Position numbers and translations under genes: made by a program. A stretch of 13,444 bases of DNA. It comes from Acidobacteriota bacterium (GTDB taxonomy: Bacteria; Acidobacteriota; Terriglobia; UBA7540). Under the pieces are notes generated by a model. The model saw only the letters and a list, made by a program, of their open reading frames with translations. It was not told the origin of the DNA and searched no databases. The stretch covers positions 1-13,444 of the forward strand of contig PLWR01000410.1 of assembly GCA_003165615.1 (NCBI GenBank), given 5' to 3'. Shown one piece after another: positions 1,884 through 11,107 of the stretch. Every line of letters starts with the position of its first letter. The first letter of the stretch is position 1.

Positions 1884-2894
1884 TTACCTTTGCCCGGTCA
1901 CGGTGAGAGTACCACTGCCGACGCAACTGTTAACGCCCAGAGGCGAGCTGATCGACAGCGTTTTCTGGAATGTTGAGAAATGCAGCATTTCCTCTTCGGT
2001 GAGCTCAAATTGCAGCGGCGTCCATTCCTGGTCGATGCAAATGCCAATGTAGTGCTCGTCATCCTCATCCGGACTCGTCGTCGCAAAGTTCGGCCCCGCG
2101 AGGCGCAGCGTGCCGCCCTTCGCCCCGCGGATGAGTTCCGCTTCGACGGCATTGCCGGTCTTGGCGTTGGTAGCCGTGTGGGATCCTCCCGGAAACTGGG
2201 CCTTTGCCGAGGCATGGAAGGTGGTAATGGCGAACTGACACCGTTCGCCAGGCTGCATGGTGGCAGAGCAGTGGGCACCCGAACCTGGGTAGGGCGTGTA
2301 GACGGCCTCGCTGTGGTGCGTTTCCTTATGATCCATTTGCGTGGAATGGATCTCAACGTCGAGGCTAGTGCGGAAGGAGATACGACTGCACATTGCATCC
2401 GTTAAATCCTTCGTCACCTTGGCACTGATATCGCTGAAGTCTGCCTCGGGGCCCGAGCCGCTCCTGCTGAGCAGCACTCCGCCTTGGGCTTCCGTGAGCT
2501 GCAGGGTAACGGTTAAGGTGGTTCCATCCGAAGACCAGCCGCCGCTCACCAACTCATTGGGTGGAACATAGCGATTCTGCATCCGAGTCGCCGGGTCTGC
2601 CCCTGGAGATTTGGAGATGTCGATCTCGGATTTTATCGCTGCCAGCTTGTCAGGGTCCGTCTCGACAAGGAGGAAGCCGCCGGGCCTGTCGTAGCACGAG
2701 GCCGCAATCAAATCCGTCGACACAACCGCCGCCACATCTGCTCCCGTGATGTCGAGTCCTGTTGCCTTGAAGCCTTTGCTGGGCGCCCCGACGATATCCA
2801 TGCCGGATTGCGCCGCGCCCGTGGCCGCTCCTCCACCCAGAAGCGCCAAGAGGAAAAGACCCAGGATAGTTCTGCCCAAGATTTTCTTTCGCAC
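1884..2894 (-). CDS. Exported protein of unknown function
   Basis: A 336-residue protein I do not recognise. The start is GTG at 2894: GGGAGG lies just upstream at good spacing, and it puts a textbook Sec signal at the N-terminus (RKK charges, then a leucine/glycine-rich core at about residues 10-22 and an Ala-rich cleavage zone ending near GAAQ). There is no lipobox cysteine, so it should be periplasmic or secreted. The open frame runs 14 codons further up to 2936, but those precede the ribosome-binding site. The segment ELVSGGWSSDGTTLTVTLQL, followed by VLLSRSGSG and an amphipathic helix ending in MC, resembles in outline the C-terminal half of TolB-like/CsgG-type periplasmic domains; this is only inference. 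The C-terminal third has paired cysteines (CSAT, ERCQF, GICID, NSCVG) that could form disulphides. It is separate from argR (133-base gap) and downstream of a repeat element. Confidence 0.8.
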   Translation of the reverse strand: MRKKILGRTILGLFLLALLGGGAATGAAQSGMDIVGAPSKGFKATGLDITGADVAAVVSTDLIAASCYDRPGGFLLVETDPDKLAAIKSEIDISKSPGADPATRMQNRYVPPNELVSGGWSSDGTTLTVTLQLTEAQGGVLLSRSGSGPEADFSDISAKVTKDLTDAMCSRISFRTSLDVEIHSTQMDHKETHHSEAVYTPYPGSGAHCSATMQPGERCQFAITTFHASAKAQFPGGSHTATNAKTGNAVEAELIRGAKGGTLRLAGPNFATTSPDEDDEHYIGICIDQEWTPLQFELTEEEMLHFSTFQKTLSISSPLGVNSCVGSGTLTVTGQR

Positions 2895-2929
2895 AACGTC
2901 CTCCCTTCGGGGCCCCGAAAAGGGTACCT

Positions 2930-3030
2930 GGAACATGTGAAAAAATTGAATTTGGACCCGTTATCCACAATGTAAAGTATTGAAAATGCGTAGTGCTGAA
3001 ATCGGTAAAAGCAATTTTTTCACATGTTCC
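2930..3030. mobile_element. MITE-like element with perfect 19-bp terminal inverted repeats
   Basis: GGAACATGTGAAAAAATTG at 2930-2948 is repeated exactly, in inverted orientation, at 3012-3030. The arms enclose 63 AT-rich bases, giving a 101-bp unit. Outside the arms the match continues weakly (GGTACCT on one side against GGTGTCA on the other). There is no open frame inside, so if it is mobile it would need a transposase from elsewhere, as MITEs and REP-type elements do. I do not see a clear target-site duplication. It sits immediately upstream of the exported-protein gene and may carry or disturb its promoter. Confidence 0.6.
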
Positions 3031-3076
3031 TGACACCGTTCTCCCTGACACCGTTCTCCCCCTGACACCGTTCTCC
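3030..3076. repeat. Triple 15-mer tandem repeat
   Basis: CTGACACCGTTCTCC occurs three times, at 3030-3044, 3045-3059 and 3062-3076, identical each time, with two extra C between the second and third copies. The first copy abuts the right arm of the inverted-repeat element at 2930-3030, so the outer edge of that element appears to have been multiplied. Confidence 0.85.
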
Positions 3077-3117
3077 CCTCGTGCGCTCGCCCTTGGATTA
3101 TCGCGCCTGAGAAAAGC

Positions 3118-3144
3118 CCACGGACAGAAATGCGCTGTCCGTGG
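3118..3144 (-). terminator. Hairpin terminator downstream of the restriction-modification gene
   Basis: A perfect 10-bp stem (CCACGGACAG pairing with CTGTCCGTGG, 7-base loop) begins nine bases past the stop of the 3153-6137 gene. On the minus strand it is followed by GGCTTTTCTC, a short U-rich tail. Position and form fit an intrinsic terminator. The tail is modest, and a similar stem followed by GGCTTTTC occurs beyond the other end of the gene, so it may instead be a repeat. Confidence 0.55.
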
Positions 3145-3152
3145 CTACCAGC

Positions 3153-6137
3153 TCAGACATTCTCAATAAGCTTACGCTCTTCCTCCGTAATGCTGTAAAG
3201 TTCGTAAACTAGGTTGTCAATTACGGCGTCGGTGGAGGCGATTTCGCGCTCAAGGCGCTCGAGTTCGGAGGGCGCGAGCTTGCCCGAATGCTTTTTCTTG
3301 TTTAATTCCAACATGCGGTCCACCAGCACCACCATCTTGTCGTGCCGGGCCTTGTCCCTGGCATCCGCGAAATCAATGGGGCGGATGGGGAGATTGCGTG
3401 TTTCCTTGAGGACGATTTTCGGGAAATCGTCTCGTTGCGCGATGTTTGAGCGCTGCAAGAAATACCAGGACACGAGGCCGCTATTGAGACACCCGAGTAA
3501 ATAGTTCAAATCTGGGCCGCCGACAATTGGCAGAACGCTCTGCATGGATTTGTTGGTAACGAAATCGTCCGTCACCTTGACGGCTTGCAATCGAAATTGC
3601 CGACTGATAAGTTCGCGCAATAGAATTCGATGGCCTTTGAAATAACGTTCCGGTTTGGGTTCAGCAAGGCTCTCGTCGAATCTGATAAATCTCTTCTCCC
3701 CCGAGTCGAATGAATATCTACGGACTGTCCCCTCGAACGCGCGCCGGCTGTGGGGATGATCTGCCTTTTCGGTGAGGTTGAAGGGAGTCACACCCCTTTG
3801 CACGTCTGCGAAATCCTTTAACGGTTTGCCACGGGTTTGTATCTTGATGATGAGTTCAGAAGAGGCGGTGTCAGCGTAAGTCAGGAACTGATCACCGCTC
3901 CCGGCAAACCAACCCGTAAGCTCGGCAGTCTTGGTGCCATCCTCAAACTCTGCGATTTGTTCAATCTTGTGCCGCTTTGGGAATGTTTTCAGGAGTACCG
4001 CGCACAGCGCTTTCCGAGGCCAAGTAACAGCCTTGGCCCTCTTAACAGCCACGAAAATTGTGGTATCAACCCAGGCCTCGAACACGTCGTAGGGAAGATT
4101 AATAAACAACTGTGGGTCGGTCTTGGACACAAGGAACTGGCGGAGGGAACTAAACCTCACGCCACTATACCAGCCAGTCGGCACGATCATTGAGACGCGA
4201 CCAGAGATATTACACTGCGCTATGGCCTTTTCCATAAAGAGGCTGTAAGTGTCCAATTCGCTTGTTGCGGTCTCGTATTTCGACCGAAGGTAATGCATCT
4301 CCCCTTCGCTCAGAAGCGCACCATACGGCGGGTTCCCAATCACGCAATCGAAACCGCCATCTTTCATGACCTGGCCGATGCTGATTTGGCCGTTGCCTGA
4401 TGTAGGGGCGGTTCGCGAACCGCCCCTCCGGGTTTTCACCAGCGGGGGGCGTAACGCCGCCGTCCCGGCGGCATCCTCCGGTGCCGGCTGGAAGCCGGCG
4501 TTACGGGCCGGAAGGAAATTCCAATCGAAGGCGTTGATGCGGTCGCGCTCTTCGTCGGCGAACAGCAGGCCCTGGTCGTAGATATCCGGGCCAATCAGGG
4601 AATTGCCGCACTGGATGTTATATTTCAATTCCGGCAGGATGTGCTGCTTGGGCGGCAGTTGCGATTGCTCGCCTTCCAGAGCCTTCAGGTACAGGCTCAT
4701 CATGGTGATCTCAACGGCTTGCGGGTCGATATCCACACCGAAGAGGTTGTGGCGAAGGATTTTGGCCTTGCGATAGACGGAGAGGCGCTTGGAGCCGTCG
4801 GGGTCGGTGTGGACCTCGCGCATAAAATCGAGCGAAGGGTGGGCGTGGCGCACTTCCTGCTCCGGGTGCTCCAGATACCATTGGGTGTGGTAGTCAATCA
4901 GGTATTGAAACGCGCCAATCAGAAAAGAGCCCGAGCCGCAGGCGGGATCGAGAATCCGAATCTTCTCAATCTGTTTGGGCGATTTGCCCTCAATGACCTT
5001 GCCGACCGTGTTCTTAACGATGTAATCAACAATGTATTTGGGCGTGTAATAGACGCCGCCAGCCTTGCGGACTTCCGGCTTCTCCTCCACCTTGACCTGT
5101 TTGGGCGTCAGGCGGATGGTATTGCCGAGGTAGCGCTCATAAATCGACCCGAGTAATTCCACGCCGATCACGTCAAAGCGGTAGGGGCTCTTGGGCGGGT
5201 AGAGGCGCTTGATGATGCGGGCCAGAATCTCCGAATCGATTTGGATGTCTTCGGAAAGGTGGGGTTTGAAGATTTCGCCGTTGAAGTCGTCGTTGACTTT
5301 GTGGAAGAGGGCGTTGAGCCAGTCGAAGATGTGGAACTTCCCGCCGTGAGTTTCCCACTCCTCCACCACCTCAAGAAGCTGGCGTTTTTCGATCACATGG
5401 CGGTCTTCGGCAATACGAATGAAAACAATTCGGTCCAACAGCCGCTGCACCACCTCGTTAAGCTGCTTGGCGGTGAGGTCAGGATTGCGCTTGTGAATAT
5501 CACGGGCCAGGTCTTCGCGCCAGCCGGTCATTTCATCCAGGAAGACGTCATCCACCTGCTTGCGCAAGTGCGGGGCGCGGCGAGCCTTGGGGAGAAGGGC
5601 ATCCAGCGAACCGGCGGCAACCCGCTCCTGGGAAAACTCCCAGAGCTTATCGACTTGCGCCGGGTAATCGGTGTATTTCAGTCTGAGCAGCAGGCCTTCA
5701 TCAGGTTGGCGCTCGTCGGGCTGGCGGGAAGCATCGTAGAAGCGGAATTCTTCAAAATCGGTGAGAATGACGAAGAAAACCTGCTTGGTGTTCCAAACGT
5801 ACCCCTTGGCCTGCAAGATGTGATGAGGATTGCTGAGGGTTTCTGACGGCGCCTTGGCTTCCACAAAGAACTTGGTCTGCCCGCCGATGCGGAAGTTGTA
5901 ATCAGGCCGGCCCGTGGTCTCACTCTCGCCGCGCTCAACGATCACCTCGCGCTGGTGGTGCGGAAAACCGGCCGCATTCTCCATGTCCCAACCCAGCGCT
6001 TTGAACAGCGGGGTGATGAAATCGACGCGCGCCTGCGCCTCAAGATAATCCTTGGAAAGATAGTGTTCCCGGTCGGCCTGGAAATTTCGGATGAGCTTTT
6101 CAAGATCGGCGCGGAACGTGGCAATTGTCGCGGGCAA
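3153..6137 (-). CDS. Type IIG (Eco57I-like) restriction-modification fusion enzyme
   Basis: A 994-residue single-chain enzyme that should both cut and adenine-methylate DNA. Residues 1-130 hold a PD-(D/E)xK nuclease (PD at 78-79, EAK at 93-95) related to the HsdR N-terminus. Residues 140-350 form a helical connector. The N6-adenine methyltransferase follows: YYTP (363-366), DPACGSGSF for AdoMet binding (397-405), acidic DID (469-471), catalytic NPPYG (602-606). Residues from about 740 to the end form a TaqI-type target recognition region, ending in the usual DNLVYELYSITEEE tail. All key residues are intact. The start is TTG at 6137, with AGGGGAG five bases upstream. Residues about 543-583 are unusual: they are encoded by a palindromic repeat inserted in frame just before the catalytic motif. 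Hand-counted lines from 3601-4260 average about 47% GC against about 59% from 4621-5820, suggesting a mosaic or imported recognition half. No separate methylase or specificity gene is nearby, as expected for type IIG. Confidence 0.93.
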   Translation of the reverse strand: MPATIATFRADLEKLIRNFQADREHYLSKDYLEAQARVDFITPLFKALGWDMENAAGFPHHQREVIVERGESETTGRPDYNFRIGGQTKFFVEAKAPSETLSNPHHILQAKGYVWNTKQVFFVILTDFEEFRFYDASRQPDERQPDEGLLLRLKYTDYPAQVDKLWEFSQERVAAGSLDALLPKARRAPHLRKQVDDVFLDEMTGWREDLARDIHKRNPDLTAKQLNEVVQRLLDRIVFIRIAEDRHVIEKRQLLEVVEEWETHGGKFHIFDWLNALFHKVNDDFNGEIFKPHLSEDIQIDSEILARIIKRLYPPKSPYRFDVIGVELLGSIYERYLGNTIRLTPKQVKVEEKPEVRKAGGVYYTPKYIVDYIVKNTVGKVIEGKSPKQIEKIRILDPACGSGSFLIGAFQYLIDYHTQWYLEHPEQEVRHAHPSLDFMREVHTDPDGSKRLSVYRKAKILRHNLFGVDIDPQAVEITMMSLYLKALEGEQSQLPPKQHILPELKYNIQCGNSLIGPDIYDQGLLFADEERDRINAFDWNFLPARNAGFQPAPEDAAGTAALRPPLVKTRRGGSRTAPTSGNGQISIGQVMKDGGFDCVIGNPPYGALLSEGEMHYLRSKYETATSELDTYSLFMEKAIAQCNISGRVSMIVPTGWYSGVRFSSLRQFLVSKTDPQLFINLPYDVFEAWVDTTIFVAVKRAKAVTWPRKALCAVLLKTFPKRHKIEQIAEFEDGTKTAELTGWFAGSGDQFLTYADTASSELIIKIQTRGKPLKDFADVQRGVTPFNLTEKADHPHSRRAFEGTVRRYSFDSGEKRFIRFDESLAEPKPERYFKGHRILLRELISRQFRLQAVKVTDDFVTNKSMQSVLPIVGGPDLNYLLGCLNSGLVSWYFLQRSNIAQRDDFPKIVLKETRNLPIRPIDFADARDKARHDKMVVLVDRMLELNKKKHSGKLAPSELERLEREIASTDAVIDNLVYELYSITEEERKLIENV
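4389..4511. repeat. Palindromic repeat inserted in frame in the methyltransferase domain
   Basis: This stretch is dense in perfect palindromes. A 24-bp one spans 4404-4427 (AGGGGCGGTTCG followed by its complement). A stem GCCGCCG/CGGCGGC spans 4456-4472 with a 3-base loop, and GCCGGCT/AGCCGGC spans 4483-4499 with a 3-base loop. Both of the last two are framed by GTAACGCCG (4451-4459) and its inverse (4496-4504), so the whole could fold as a cloverleaf. It encodes about 41 residues rich in Ala, Pro, Arg and Gly without breaking the frame, in the link between FDWNF and the NPPY-containing strand. Confidence 0.85.
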
Positions 6138-6366
6138 GTGCGCTCCCCTGATGTTGACCAGATGTGAACCCAGAGTCTAATGCCACCGGACGGCAGATTC
6201 AAGAGAAGTTAGGATTGGAAGCAAGGCAGCGCGGACCTTTTTGTTGAGGTCCGCGGCTTTTCGTGGTGATGGGGGGAAGGACCGCGAACCTTGAGGTGCT
6301 GGTTCGCGCTACACTGCTGTTTCCCGCGCGCCAGCGCGTTCAGCCTGATGTAGCGGCGGGCTTCAC
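6138..6366. other. Gene-free spacer with hairpins, left of the hairpin array
   Basis: No gene is supported here. It contains the upstream region of the restriction-modification gene and two stems: CGCGGACCT/AGGTCCGCG at 6230-6255, followed on the plus strand by GGCTTTTC, and CGCGAACC/GGTTCGCG at 6283-6308. A partial copy of the array unit's core (GTAGCGGCGGG, 6350-6360) lies near the right edge, inside an inverted repeat CAGCCTG/CAGGCTG (6341-6347 and 6366-6372). No gene ends here on the plus strand, so the first stem is unlikely to be a conventional terminator. Confidence 0.6.
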
Positions 6367-6395
6367 AGGCTGCGGAAAAACCCCTGGCACACGAC

Positions 6396-6419
6396 GTAGC
6401 GGCGACTTTACGTCGCCAT
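6396..6419 (+). repeat. Solitary hairpin unit, opposite orientation to the array
   Basis: GTAGC, then stem GGCGAC, loop TTTAC, stem GTCGCC, then AT. Read on the plus strand it equals an array unit read on the minus strand, with the same 5-base loop and 6-bp stem. Two stem pairs are exchanged (A-T and C-G instead of two G-C), so both sides changed together. Confidence 0.75.
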
Positions 6420-6440
6420 AACCTCAATGGGTGCAACATA

Positions 6441-6710
6441 GAGATGGCGGGATAAACCCGCCGCTACGTTGCCATGGCGGGATAAACCCGCCGCTACGTT
6501 GCCATGGCGGGGTAAACCCGCCGCTACATTGCCATGGCGGGGTAAACCCGCCGCTACGTTGCCTTGGCGGGGTAAACCCGCCGCTACGTTGCCTTGGCGG
6601 GGTAAACCCGCCGCTACATTGCCATGGCGGGATAAATTCGCCGATACATTGCCATGGCGGGGTAAACCCGCCGCTACGTTGCCATGGCGGGGTAAATTCG
6701 CCGCTACGTT
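6441..6710. repeat. Nine tandem 30-bp hairpin units
   Basis: Nine head-to-tail units of exactly 30 bases, each with a stem GGCGGG, a 5-base loop (ATAAA or GTAAA) and CCCGCC, then GCTAC and a linker. Variation is confined to a few positions: loop base 1, GCCATGG or GCCTTGG in the linker, ACGTT or ACATT at the end. In units seven and nine CCCGCC becomes TTCGCC, which in plus-strand RNA still pairs through G-U wobbles. There are no spacers, so it is not CRISPR. Because 30 is a multiple of three, frames stay open on both strands (10-residue repeats such as PWRGKPAATL), but I see no ribosome-binding site and do not call a gene. Confidence 0.92.
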
Positions 6711-6724
6711 TTTCCGCAGCCTCT

Positions 6725-7171
6725 TCAGGCGGCGTTGGGGAGGGTTTCCGGCGTTTCCTCCGGGAGGATTTCAAACGTGGTTTCAATCTTTGCCGTCTTG
6801 GAAATCATGGCGCCCACCGAGCAGTACTTGGTTTCCGAGAGGTGAATGGCGGCCCTTACCGCCTCGGGATCGATTTGGCCGTGCAGCCGGTGCTTGATCT
6901 CCACGCGCGTAAAGAACGCGGGGGGTTCGGAGTTCTGGTCGGCGCGCAGCTCGATTTCATAACCGGTCACCTTTTGCCGCTTCTTGCGCAAAATATTGAT
7001 GACGTCAAAAGCCGTGCAGCCGCCCAGGGCCAGCAGCGCCAGCTCGATCGGCTTGGCTCCGCTGTGGCCGTCCGCATCGTCCATCACCAACGCGTGGCCG
7101 GTGCCCGATTGGGCCACGAATTGGCGCCCCGTGCCTTCCACCGTGGTCAAACGCAATTTGCCTTCAATCAT
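6725..7171 (-). CDS. OsmC/Ohr family thiol protein
   Basis: A 148-residue protein of the OsmC fold, whose members reduce organic hydroperoxides with a reactive cysteine pair; the cell compartment is the cytosol. The two family cysteines are present: Cys52 in LLALGGCTAFDVI (at the start of the central helix) and Cys117 in ETKYCSVGAM. The pattern GGCTAFDV with a long helix rich in KKRQK resembles the YhfA-like branch rather than Ohr itself, so the physiological substrate is uncertain. The start at 7171 has GAGGTG five bases upstream. It stands alone: the hairpin array is immediately downstream and a gene-free stretch upstream. The C-terminal tail (PEETPETLPNAA) is a short low-complexity extension. 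Confidence 0.92.
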   Translation of the reverse strand: MIEGKLRLTTVEGTGRQFVAQSGTGHALVMDDADGHSGAKPIELALLALGGCTAFDVINILRKKRQKVTGYEIELRADQNSEPPAFFTRVEIKHRLHGQIDPEAVRAAIHLSETKYCSVGAMISKTAKIETTFEILPEETPETLPNAA

Positions 7172-7783
7172 AGGTCACCTCAATTTCCTTTGGCGCTGGA
7201 CGCTCCACCTTCCGTCGCGAGGAAGGGAAGCCTGCCCGACCGCGGGGCCGCAAAAACCACGGCAGGTGCGAAGGCCACTCCGCGGGGATTTCCCTCACCT
7301 CAGATCGATGAATGCAATTTGCGGTGCGAAGTAACGGAAATGTTTGTGTGCAAGCGCGGAATGCGACATAAAGACCGTTTATAGGTGTCCGCTATGCAAA
7401 TTAGCTGAGCGGCGCAGGGGTAGGTCAAAAGAATCTTCGCATAGGCTGGAAAAAGCGACATTTTGACATCCCCTCACAGCCCTGGCAGCGGCGGGGATTA
7501 TCGAGCATCCTTGGGCTATCCACAATGCGGTGGCAGGGGAAGCCTGATTTTGAAATAGCATGGAATGCGATTCCCGATTTTTGATTCCGTACTTTCCGGT
7601 ACCCATAGGGTGCGGCAAAAACCAATTGCGCCATTACCTGTTCGCGCTGTGCAAAATGGCCGCCGCAAATTTGGGTTATACTGGCGCTGGTGTTGCCCGG
7701 CTGTTTCGCATGGCGCCCCCCCTGGCGTTTTCGAGGGCGGCTTTCAACGCGTCACCAAAGCCCCATGCAGGAAAGGATCCCGC
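7172..7783. other. Gene-free divergent spacer
   Basis: This lies between two divergently transcribed genes and must hold both promoters. No frame here has a believable start or family likeness. The long plus-strand frame beginning at 7565 runs into the acetyltransferase but starts inside a heptamer repeat. I can point to a small stem CCTTCC/GGAAGG (7208-7226), three heptamers GATTCCC, GATTTTT, GATTCCG (7569-7589) and a TATACT box at 7677-7682. I cannot explain the stretch of about 190 bases from 7380 to 7568. Confidence 0.5.
7677..7682 (+). promoter_or_regulatory. Possible -10 box for the acetyltransferase gene
   Basis: TATACT stands about 100 bases upstream of the chosen start codon in a GC-rich background and differs from the sigma-70 -10 consensus at one position. 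No convincing -35 hexamer is at 16-18 bases spacing, so this is weak. Confidence 0.25.
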
Positions 7784-10567: not shown

Positions 10568-10592
10568 AGGACGCGCCGTACCGCGCCCCTAC
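10568..10592. repeat. GTAGGGGCG-type imperfect palindrome at the macro-domain stop codon
   Basis: Read on the minus strand, TGTAGGGGCG begins on the TAG stop codon of the macro-domain gene and continues as an imperfect GC-rich palindrome (GGGCGCGGTACGGCGCGTCC). The leading TGTAGGGGCG is identical to the start of the palindrome inside the restriction-modification gene (4401-4410). It may act as a transcript-end hairpin, though no T-tract follows. Confidence 0.5.
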
Positions 10593-11107
10593 AGGCGTTC
10601 AGCCAGTACCCTTTGATAAATATCGCGCGTGCGGCGGTCAAAACAAACGAAGAAAACCTTTTCCAGGGCGGGGTTCTTTTCCAGGAAAGCGCGAACTTCC
10701 CGAATGGCGATGCGCGTGGCCCGTAGCAAAGGGAATCCGTAAGCACCGGTGCTGATGGCGGGGAAGGCCACGGTGCGGATGCCGGTTTGGACGGCCATTT
10801 CAAGAGACCGCCGGTAGCAGCTTGCCAGCAGTTCGTCCTCACGATGTTCGCCATCTCGCCACACCGGCCCCACCGTGTGGATAATCCACCGCGCCGGCAG
10901 GCGATAGCCCTCCGTCACTTTGGCATCGCCGGTGGGGCAGCCGCGCAAGGTTCGGCATTCCTCCAGCAGTTCCGGCCCCGCCGCTGCATGAATGGCGCCA
11001 TCCACACCACCGCCGCCCAGCAACGAGGTGTTTGCCGCATTCACGATGGCGTCGACGTTTTGCTCCGTGATGTCGCCTTCGACAACTTCGATGGTTACGT
11101 TTAGCAT
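10589..11107 (-). CDS. Macro-domain ADP-ribose hydrolase (MacroD/YmdB type)
   Basis: A 172-residue stand-alone macro domain. Proteins of this type bind ADP-ribose and remove O-acetyl groups or mono-ADP-ribose from acidic residues. The landmarks are all there: GDIT (11-14), [20 protein letters not shown] (21-40, with the NAAN ribose-binding loop and catalytic Asp36 in GGVDGAIH), [15 protein letters not shown] (57-71), IIHTVGP (75-81) and the phosphate loop ISTGAYGFP (118-126). The length equals that of free-standing bacterial MacroD proteins. No ADP-ribosyltransferase or DarT toxin gene is adjacent, so a toxin-antitoxin role is not indicated. ATG 11107 fits the usual N-terminus. It is upstream of the membrane-protein gene on the same strand, 84 bases away. 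Confidence 0.94.

Follow-up and report, generated by a model that had tools for sequence, protein, structure and literature searches.

The locus and its restriction-modification gene

The DNA analysed here, called the window, is a stretch of 13,444 nucleotides from contig PLWR01000410.1 of a soil-dwelling Acidobacteriota bacterium (assembly GCA_003165615.1). It contains a gene for a type IIG restriction-modification enzyme of the Eco57I/MmeI-like kind, and inside this gene a cluster of palindromes lies between the FDW and NPPY motifs of the methyltransferase domain (Table 1). We refer to the segment between these motifs as the link, which may be filled or empty. Proteins, DNA loci and genomes used for comparison are numbered with P, L and G, respectively.

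The open reading frame (ORF) of the enzyme is uninterrupted over 2,985 nt and begins with TTG; the database copy of the protein, P0001, is annotated shorter, with 804 residues. Pfam places HSDR_N at residues 64-140, Eco57I at 463-686 and TaqI_C at 805-918, and also matches N6_Mtase and MmeI_Mtase. HSDR_N, Eco57I, N6_Mtase and TaqI_C each exceed the cut-offs, so that nuclease, N6-methyltransferase and TaqI-like specificity are joined in one chain, the domain set of a type IIG Eco57I-like enzyme. The nearest solved structures among the best 50 Foldseek matches were CamA, BrxX/PglX, M.BseCI, BpuSI, DrdV and MmeI, and the nearest named homologues belong to Terriglobia.

Table 1. Coordinates of the features of the window (a dot marks features without a strand).
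Feature	Positions	Strand	Basis
Type IIG (Eco57I/MmeI-like) restriction-modification enzyme, 994 residues	3153..6137	-	ORF, Pfam, Foldseek
FDW codons (residues 537-539), left edge of the variable link	4521..4529	-	Translation; W539 invariant in alignment A1
Catalytic motif IV, NPPY codons (residues 602-605)	4323..4334	-	N602, P603 and P604 invariant in alignment A1; preceded by strand 596-601
In-frame insert of palindromic repeats, +41 codons, 123 bp	4389..4511	-	Hairpin scan, comparison with empty link
GTAG-tagged repetitive extragenic palindromic (REP) unit GTAGGGGCGGTTCGCGAACCGCCCCT; gene strand encodes RGGSRTAPT	4402..4427	+	Perfect palindrome; same in G001, G002
Inverted pair of REP-like units with GTAA tags; encodes NAGFQPAPEDAAGTAAL	4450..4505	.	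Arms 4450-4473/4482-4505
Second TGTAGGGGCG, supplying the TAG stop codon of ORF 10589-11107; decayed palindrome	10584..10593	-	ORF list, motif search
Array of another GTAG palindrome, GTAGCGGCGGGTTTATCCCGCC, adjoining the enzyme gene	6349..6786	.	Resembles repeats around the Y1 gene of L090, G034

Palindromes translated in frame before motif IV

A sequence-only reading of the window had pointed to palindromes at this place, and our analysis confirmed it: positions 4389-4511 are an in-frame cluster of palindromes between FDW and NPPY. The 24-bp palindrome at 4404-4427 is perfect and is followed by a hairpin-rich stretch at 4450-4505; together they are the strongest hairpins of the gene. The two arms of the latter, 24 nt each, are 83% complementary, with two smaller hairpins within, and GTAA tags sit at both outer ends (4451 on the forward strand, 4504 on the reverse strand). 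The hairpin score was 12 in the insert and 8 at most outside it, and none of the 451 outside 60-nt segments of the gene reached the score of the insert.

Between the TGG and GGFD codons, the link measures 162 nt in the window versus 39 nt in the empty relative L052. The difference of 123 nt, or 41 codons, agrees with the earlier estimate of about 41 residues added in an open frame, which runs on to 994 residues. The conserved motifs are kept around the insert.

The structure model has a mean predicted local distance difference test score (pLDDT) of 83.4. Residues 546-581 form its longest stretch below 50, with values of about 33, between helix 528-534 and helix 587-592, and the insert precedes the strand leading to NPPY. 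Methyltransferases of this type are folded such that the end of the sheet concerned points away from the active site. Modelled at a very low confidence typical of disorder, the insert looks like a floppy loop, in keeping with the surface loop that the sequence-only reading had proposed to look for. An intein in the window was rejected: the insert has 41 residues, and Pfam matched no splicing or intein family in the window protein. Nor did it match an intein family in P0170, P0192 or L024, discussed below.

The palindromes fit the GTAG REPs as that class is defined in PMC3733652, judging by their sequence features. GTAG at 4402 adjoins a stem of at least 10 pairs (5-13 bp in the definition), and the 4450-4505 pair is an inverted dimer with tags at its outer ends. 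Its GTAA tags are a variant of the GTAG form found in loci L044 and L046 (G001, G005), which carry a GTAG-tagged version of the second unit, GTAGCGCCGGCTTCCAGCCGGC. Related genomes also contain the window palindrome (87-100% identity, E <0.001): G001 has it at 7 places and G002 at 1. An example from G001, GTAGGGGCGGTTCGCGAACCGCCCCTAC, is bounded by GTAG on one side and by CTAC on the other. With these copies and the Terriglobia homologues, the idea of an in-frame dispersed palindromic element analogous to those of Rickettsia, in another phylum, was supported. Within the window, TGTAGGGGCG has two exact matches, at 4401-4410 (+) and 10584-10593 (-), and 7 sites with at most one mismatch versus 0.75 expected, a number reached by none of 200 shuffles. 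The second exact match provides the TAG stop codon near 10592, where the same start had been noticed before, for a product that we take to be a macro-domain protein.

Fillings of the link in close homologues

The homologue sample consisted of the best 120 of 7,996 scored proteins. The link is short in 24 of them, long and read through to NPPY in 93, while 3 lose the frame. The earlier expectation that relatives would have a short link only was right for 24 of the 120, while the majority of those listed hold other sequence at this place. The long links span 26-72 residues (92 measured) and sort into 15 named kinds and one unclassified group by our own regular-expression classes; an RGGSRTAPT-like peptide was matched in 24 of the 93 by the same means. 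Some of the 93 are incomplete, namely two that stop within 25 residues after NPPY and others that are fragments. Link DNA was read for five filled enzymes of the clade (window, L001, L002, L003 and L049), and palindromes are plain in all five. The three proteins that lose the frame, P0108, P0110 and P0114, have repeat-like sequence in the link and end there. Frequent disruption of the gene by insertions would have this result; sequencing errors are possible as well.

Length variation of this extent is peculiar to the link among the segments compared. Across the four segments between the five preceding motifs, lengths are 30-33, 58-63, 35-41 and 18-21 residues, varying by at most 6, and none is more than 15 residues above its mode (0/115, 0/116, 0/117 and 0/118). 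The link exceeds its mode by more than 15 residues in 92 of 116.

The filling differs even between very similar enzymes. Among 27 pairs with an N-terminal flank at least 95% and a C-terminal flank at least 90% identical, 13, from four protein groups, differ in link class. P0037 and P0084, for example, are 98.0% and 96.8% identical on the two flanks and belong to different link classes; P0033 (filled) and P0105 (empty), with 96.9% and 92.7%, are the sole filled/empty pair among the 13. Both enzyme kinds can occur in one genome, as in G003 with L052 (empty) and L074 (filled). On a tree built from the 300 residues before the link (115 tips, 17 link states), link class requires at least 61 changes versus 75-87 in shuffles, and 56 versus at least 58 when only the 91 filled bearers are considered. 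Filled or empty status changes 11 times versus a shuffled mean of 22.2. We read the pairs and the tree as probable signs of turnover, not as counts of events. A conserved function of the inserted peptide is unsupported, the fillings having no common sequence; the term "domesticated", which had been applied to the insert, is not borne out, as there is no sign of a selected function and enzymes alike on both flanks differ in the insert. As a whole, these sequence comparisons are very probably best explained by the link between motifs III and IV being a recurrent landing site for repeats.

The same link in other genomes and phyla

The link was readable in 28 of 37 DNA loci. Six had repeats or a mobiliser between FDW and NPPY: L001, L002 and L003 from Acidobacteria, L012 from a record labelled Thermotoga, L025 from Anaerolineales and L024 from Chloroflexi. 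A palindromic repeat is also present in L007 (Nitrospirae), between GNSLIG and FDW. Seven inserts (L001, L002, L007, L012, L025, L049 and, for the palindrome only, L024) were searched in their own genomes, and all had further matches there. The numbers of matches were 42 in G034, 60 in G002, 63 in G001, 44 in G042, 6 in G041, 9 in G043 (mostly short and partial) and 13 sites in G044 (0 in the control); they include the query and often both strands of a palindrome, and in G034, G002, G001 and G042 40 candidates were scored. The L007 insert has 23 further near-full-length copies, and the L025 insert 8 further matches, all partial.

Among readable proteins, links of at least 26 residues, with repeats unproven, occurred in 24 of 109 in the Anaerolineales-enzyme set and 8 of 105 in the Nitrospirae-enzyme set. 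Four of the latter eight (P0279, P0281, P0288 and P0320) were rejected as repeat insertions, as was L011, on account of a shared PLHGS-type segment. Some proteins have extra length in two other linkers of the domain (8/116 and 7/103; 16/108 and 5/100), due in part to shared non-repeat segments; P0138-P0140 and P0146 share one such insertion in another segment, and P0344/P0345 another.

Hairpins inside and outside the link were compared in 14 genes, with the link located by script in 8 of the 14 and set by hand in L007. The comparison separated the insert from the rest of the gene in the window, L001 and L002, and failed to do so in L007 (7 of 462 outside segments as high) and L012 (6 of 476). 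The high outside segments of L012 include a second palindrome of the same gene (L012:3705-6779), CCCCTCTCCCGCGGCTGGGAGAGGGG, which is in frame between DPACGSG and GVDID.

Repeat copies were also sampled for their surroundings: 7 of 23 in G042 and 5 of 23 in G034 lay in ORFs open for at least 60 codons on both sides, although one such frame has 143 codons and may be spurious. Pfam identified a D-Ala-D-Ala ligase, a CheA-type kinase, a debranching-type enzyme, a methionyl-tRNA synthetase and two type ISP restriction enzymes among these frames; L112 had no family and L130 a weak match only, and L127, L132 and L134 were left out of the scan. The presence of repeats in other gene frames of G042 and G034 indicates that translated repeats are not confined to this enzyme.

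Mobiliser domains inside the link

Some links hold a domain of a potential mobiliser. L024 has one open frame of 1,165 codons, in which Y1_Tnp (profile positions 28-89 of 121) lies between the methyltransferase halves, together with two copies of a palindrome present at 13 sites of its genome. In P0170 and P0192, a near-full DUF559 match (5-108 of 109) is located in the link and adjoins PSPLPKGEG-type peptides. More than anything else observed, these domains suggest that the short inserts derive from mobile elements, as remnants or as non-autonomous forms.

DUF559 is itself associated with C-rich palindromes. Of 35 non-overlapping centred loci, 33 had a C-rich hairpin no more than 450 bp from the centre of the DUF559 match, and 23 had one on both sides, with 76 hairpins near the match versus 2 at 900-1,350 bp; among Y1 control loci, 2 of 17 had one nearby. 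Two DUF559 loci and one Y1 locus had been dropped for overlap (34 of 37 centred DUF559 loci before that), and the DUF559 loci were the best-scoring ones, mostly from the phylum of G043. The restriction enzyme of G042 carries a repeat of which another copy lies about 10 bp past the end of the DUF559 match at C29:6539-6811 in that genome. To our knowledge, no mobiliser has been assigned to this repeat class, for which DUF559 is a candidate. The available parts of the open-access literature contained no description of DUF559 genes beside palindromes, and the association may be new.

Several related observations were made. In L151-L197, DUF559 (PF04480) genes adjoin genome-specific C-rich palindromes, e.g., CCCTCTCCC...GGGAGAGGG. 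The methionine synthase gene MetH contains in-frame DUF559 and PxPSPVGEG-like repeat peptides in three genomes (L198:1221-5261, L199:1783-5904 and L203:1522-5664), with DUF559 between the pterin-binding and B12-binding domains. In L201:1987-6057 and L202:2264-6031, DUF559 has intein-like surroundings inside N4/N6 DNA methylases, where the Intein_splicing matches fall below the curated cut-off. Another methyltransferase-like frame, L205 (G178; RFFHWPLEFPEVF...), has repeat peptides and a partial DUF559 match, with a run of N in the record, at a place that looks like the equivalent of the restriction-enzyme link.

Other repeats near the enzyme gene

Matches to PF01797 (Y1) occur in 8 of 8 comparison genomes, and the Y1 gene of L090 (G034) is flanked by GTAG palindromes of another sequence. 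Also in G034, a Y1 transposase gene (PF01797; L150:1170-1628, reverse strand) lies about 700 bp downstream of a filled restriction enzyme (2323-5508, reverse strand). In the window, the GTAGCGGCGGGTTTATCCCGCC array sits between the enzyme gene and ORF 6725-7171, presumably OsmC-like, and ORFs called across the array, e.g., 6431-7384, look spurious. By eye, inverted GGAACATGTGAAAAAATTG copies about 60 bp apart, followed by repeated CTGACACCGTTCTCC units, were seen at 2930-3080; they look like another small mobile repeat adjoining the enzyme gene.

A probable permissive landing site and its alternatives

We consider it highly probable that the insert in the window consists of in-frame dispersed palindromic repeats, and that the link is a permissive landing site with turnover and not a conserved domain; the origin from dispersed palindromic repeats is well supported. 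One GTAG-tagged REP and an inverted pair of related units would have entered the codons of a loop in the methyltransferase domain, between motif III and the strand leading to NPPY. Their class and neighbourhood suggest that such units were moved by an HUH transposase of the Y1, REP-associated tyrosine transposase (RAYT) type. Most hits elsewhere in the gene would have been lost since they break the enzyme, whereas insertions in the loop could persist, provided that they lengthen the gene by a multiple of three and keep the TAG of GTAG out of the reading frame. This survival filter would be visible in the three proteins that lose the frame in a filled link. Once the loop is filled, more repeats might enter or replace the old ones at little cost. 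The same link would be used in other phyla by repeats of a second class, C-rich palindromes of the kind that adjoins DUF559 genes.

A broader version, which we put forward tentatively and at somewhat less than an even chance, is that the link between motifs III and IV of N6-adenine methyltransferases is a cross-phylum landing pad for two unrelated systems of mobiliser and palindrome: RAYT with GTAG REPs, and an undescribed DUF559 EDxHD-type mobiliser with C-rich palindromes. Mobilisers would enter in frame, be translated, decay to palindromes and be replaced faster than the enzyme evolves.

Several points weigh against a landing site with turnover. The counts of the window palindrome beyond the window itself cover related genomes only, and beyond the five DNA-read enzymes of the clade the repeat origin is deduced from peptides. 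The flanks NFVP...SIGQVM are common to most filled links, so many may descend from an older filled state, and 93 filled links do not mean as many insertions. The tree has poor resolution, with support below 80% at 68 of its 112 inner branches; the classes of insert retain a phylogenetic signal; and recombination between alleles could exchange parts of the gene around an insert. Homologues were found as predicted proteins and loci by their open frame, so the in-frame state was partly selected for. In L001 a TAG comes 25 codons downstream of NPPY, and this copy is probably not intact. The involvement of RAYT is likewise deduced from class and neighbourhood. The position of the L007 insert, before FDW, makes the site a region and not a point, and strong hairpins occur elsewhere in some genes, namely L012 and, with empty links, L005 and L020.

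Part of this evidence would suit allele shuffling, in which each insert was gained once per specificity allele and recombination then homogenised the N-terminal part. Type IIG enzymes exchange specificity regions, the C-terminal parts form 33 clusters at 70% identity, and the tree is poorly resolved. Nevertheless, the largest C-terminal clusters (21, 17, 9, 8 and 8 members) each hold 4-9 link labels, empty included, and in the protein-level data the 13 of 27 pairs in four groups differ in link class despite being alike on both flanks. Such shuffling is conceivable, but we think it rather unlikely. A second alternative is a selected linker. Here a long disordered loop before motif IV would tune activity, stability or the balance of restriction and modification, and any repeat-derived sequence would serve; the filled links in 93 of 120 homologues and the stability of filled or empty status on the tree (11 changes versus 22.2) agree with this. 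The fillings, however, share neither sequence nor length (26-72 residues), and empty enzymes are common, even as a second copy in one genome (G003), which leaves this explanation improbable.

The palindromes could instead act as DNA or mRNA structures in the gene, through pausing or attenuation of restriction, with the peptide as a by-product. The strong hairpins are compatible with that (z -2.69 for DNA and -2.17 for RNA against dinucleotide shuffles), but the excess in folding energy is modest, with 3 (DNA) and 5 (RNA) of 200 shuffles folding equally well, and such repeats are also found inside unrelated genes of G042 and G034; we give this only a slim chance. Finally, misjoining of contigs at repeats or faulty gene calling could mimic an insertion, as sampled copies are often near contig ends in these metagenome-assembled genomes and three homologues lose the frame in the link. 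Against such an artefact, 93 separate protein clusters read through the link, the window protein is found on an 80-kb contig and in a cluster of 7 member sequences, and G034 has a complete 1,061-residue enzyme within a 35-kb contig, so that an artefact is hardly credible.

Relation to known systems

Di Nocera et al. (2013, PMC3733652) have already reported REPs that lie in frame within proteins of several species. In the text of that report, the TAG of GTAG REPs often supplies stop codons to neighbouring genes, and recB of two Xanthomonas species contains different REPs at about the same place; the words "restriction", "methylase" and "hotspot" are absent from its main text, supplements aside. 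The window shares with GTAG REPs and their REPtrons the GTAG tag, short GC-rich palindromes, inverted pairs and clusters, and occurrence in frame inside some ORFs, as well as a stop codon of a neighbour taken from TAG (at 10589). Y1 genes are present in related genomes, that of L090 between GTAG palindromes, and may stand for a further likeness to REPtrons (Y1/RAYT). What differs from the cases in PMC3733652 is that, in 93 proteins of one enzyme family, a single link carries about 15 motif classes.

Rickettsia palindromic elements (RPE; Ogata et al. 2000) are described in a passage of PMC10969869 as palindromic repeats translated in frame inside protein genes. The present inserts resemble them in kind; RPEs, however, are described in many different genes, while here a single link is refilled. 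For the second system, according to a passage of PMC9403480, the EDxHD homing endonuclease family includes a DUF559-containing gene. The DUF559 domains in intein-like surroundings of DNA methylases (L201 and L202) are similar to these endonucleases, whereas the free-standing genes beside C-rich palindromes and the in-frame domains in the restriction-enzyme link (P0170 and P0192) and in MetH set the present cases apart. The enzyme itself is like the Eco57I/MmeI-like type IIG enzymes BpuSI, MmeI and DrdV, and the PglX of bacteriophage exclusion (BREX) systems, in domains and fold, the level at which they were compared; it differs in carrying a 41-residue repeat-derived loop before motif IV.

In-frame REPs are known, and what appears new is that one link of an enzyme is filled again and again with many kinds of sequence, mobiliser domains among them. 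In-frame REPs in proteins have so far been scattered cases, but here one position offers a natural series in otherwise similar enzymes: empty, filled with about 15 kinds of sequence, and filled with a mobiliser domain. Such a series makes it testable whether palindromic repeats select their targets or simply persist in places where proteins can accommodate them, and whether translated selfish DNA can become protein sequence.

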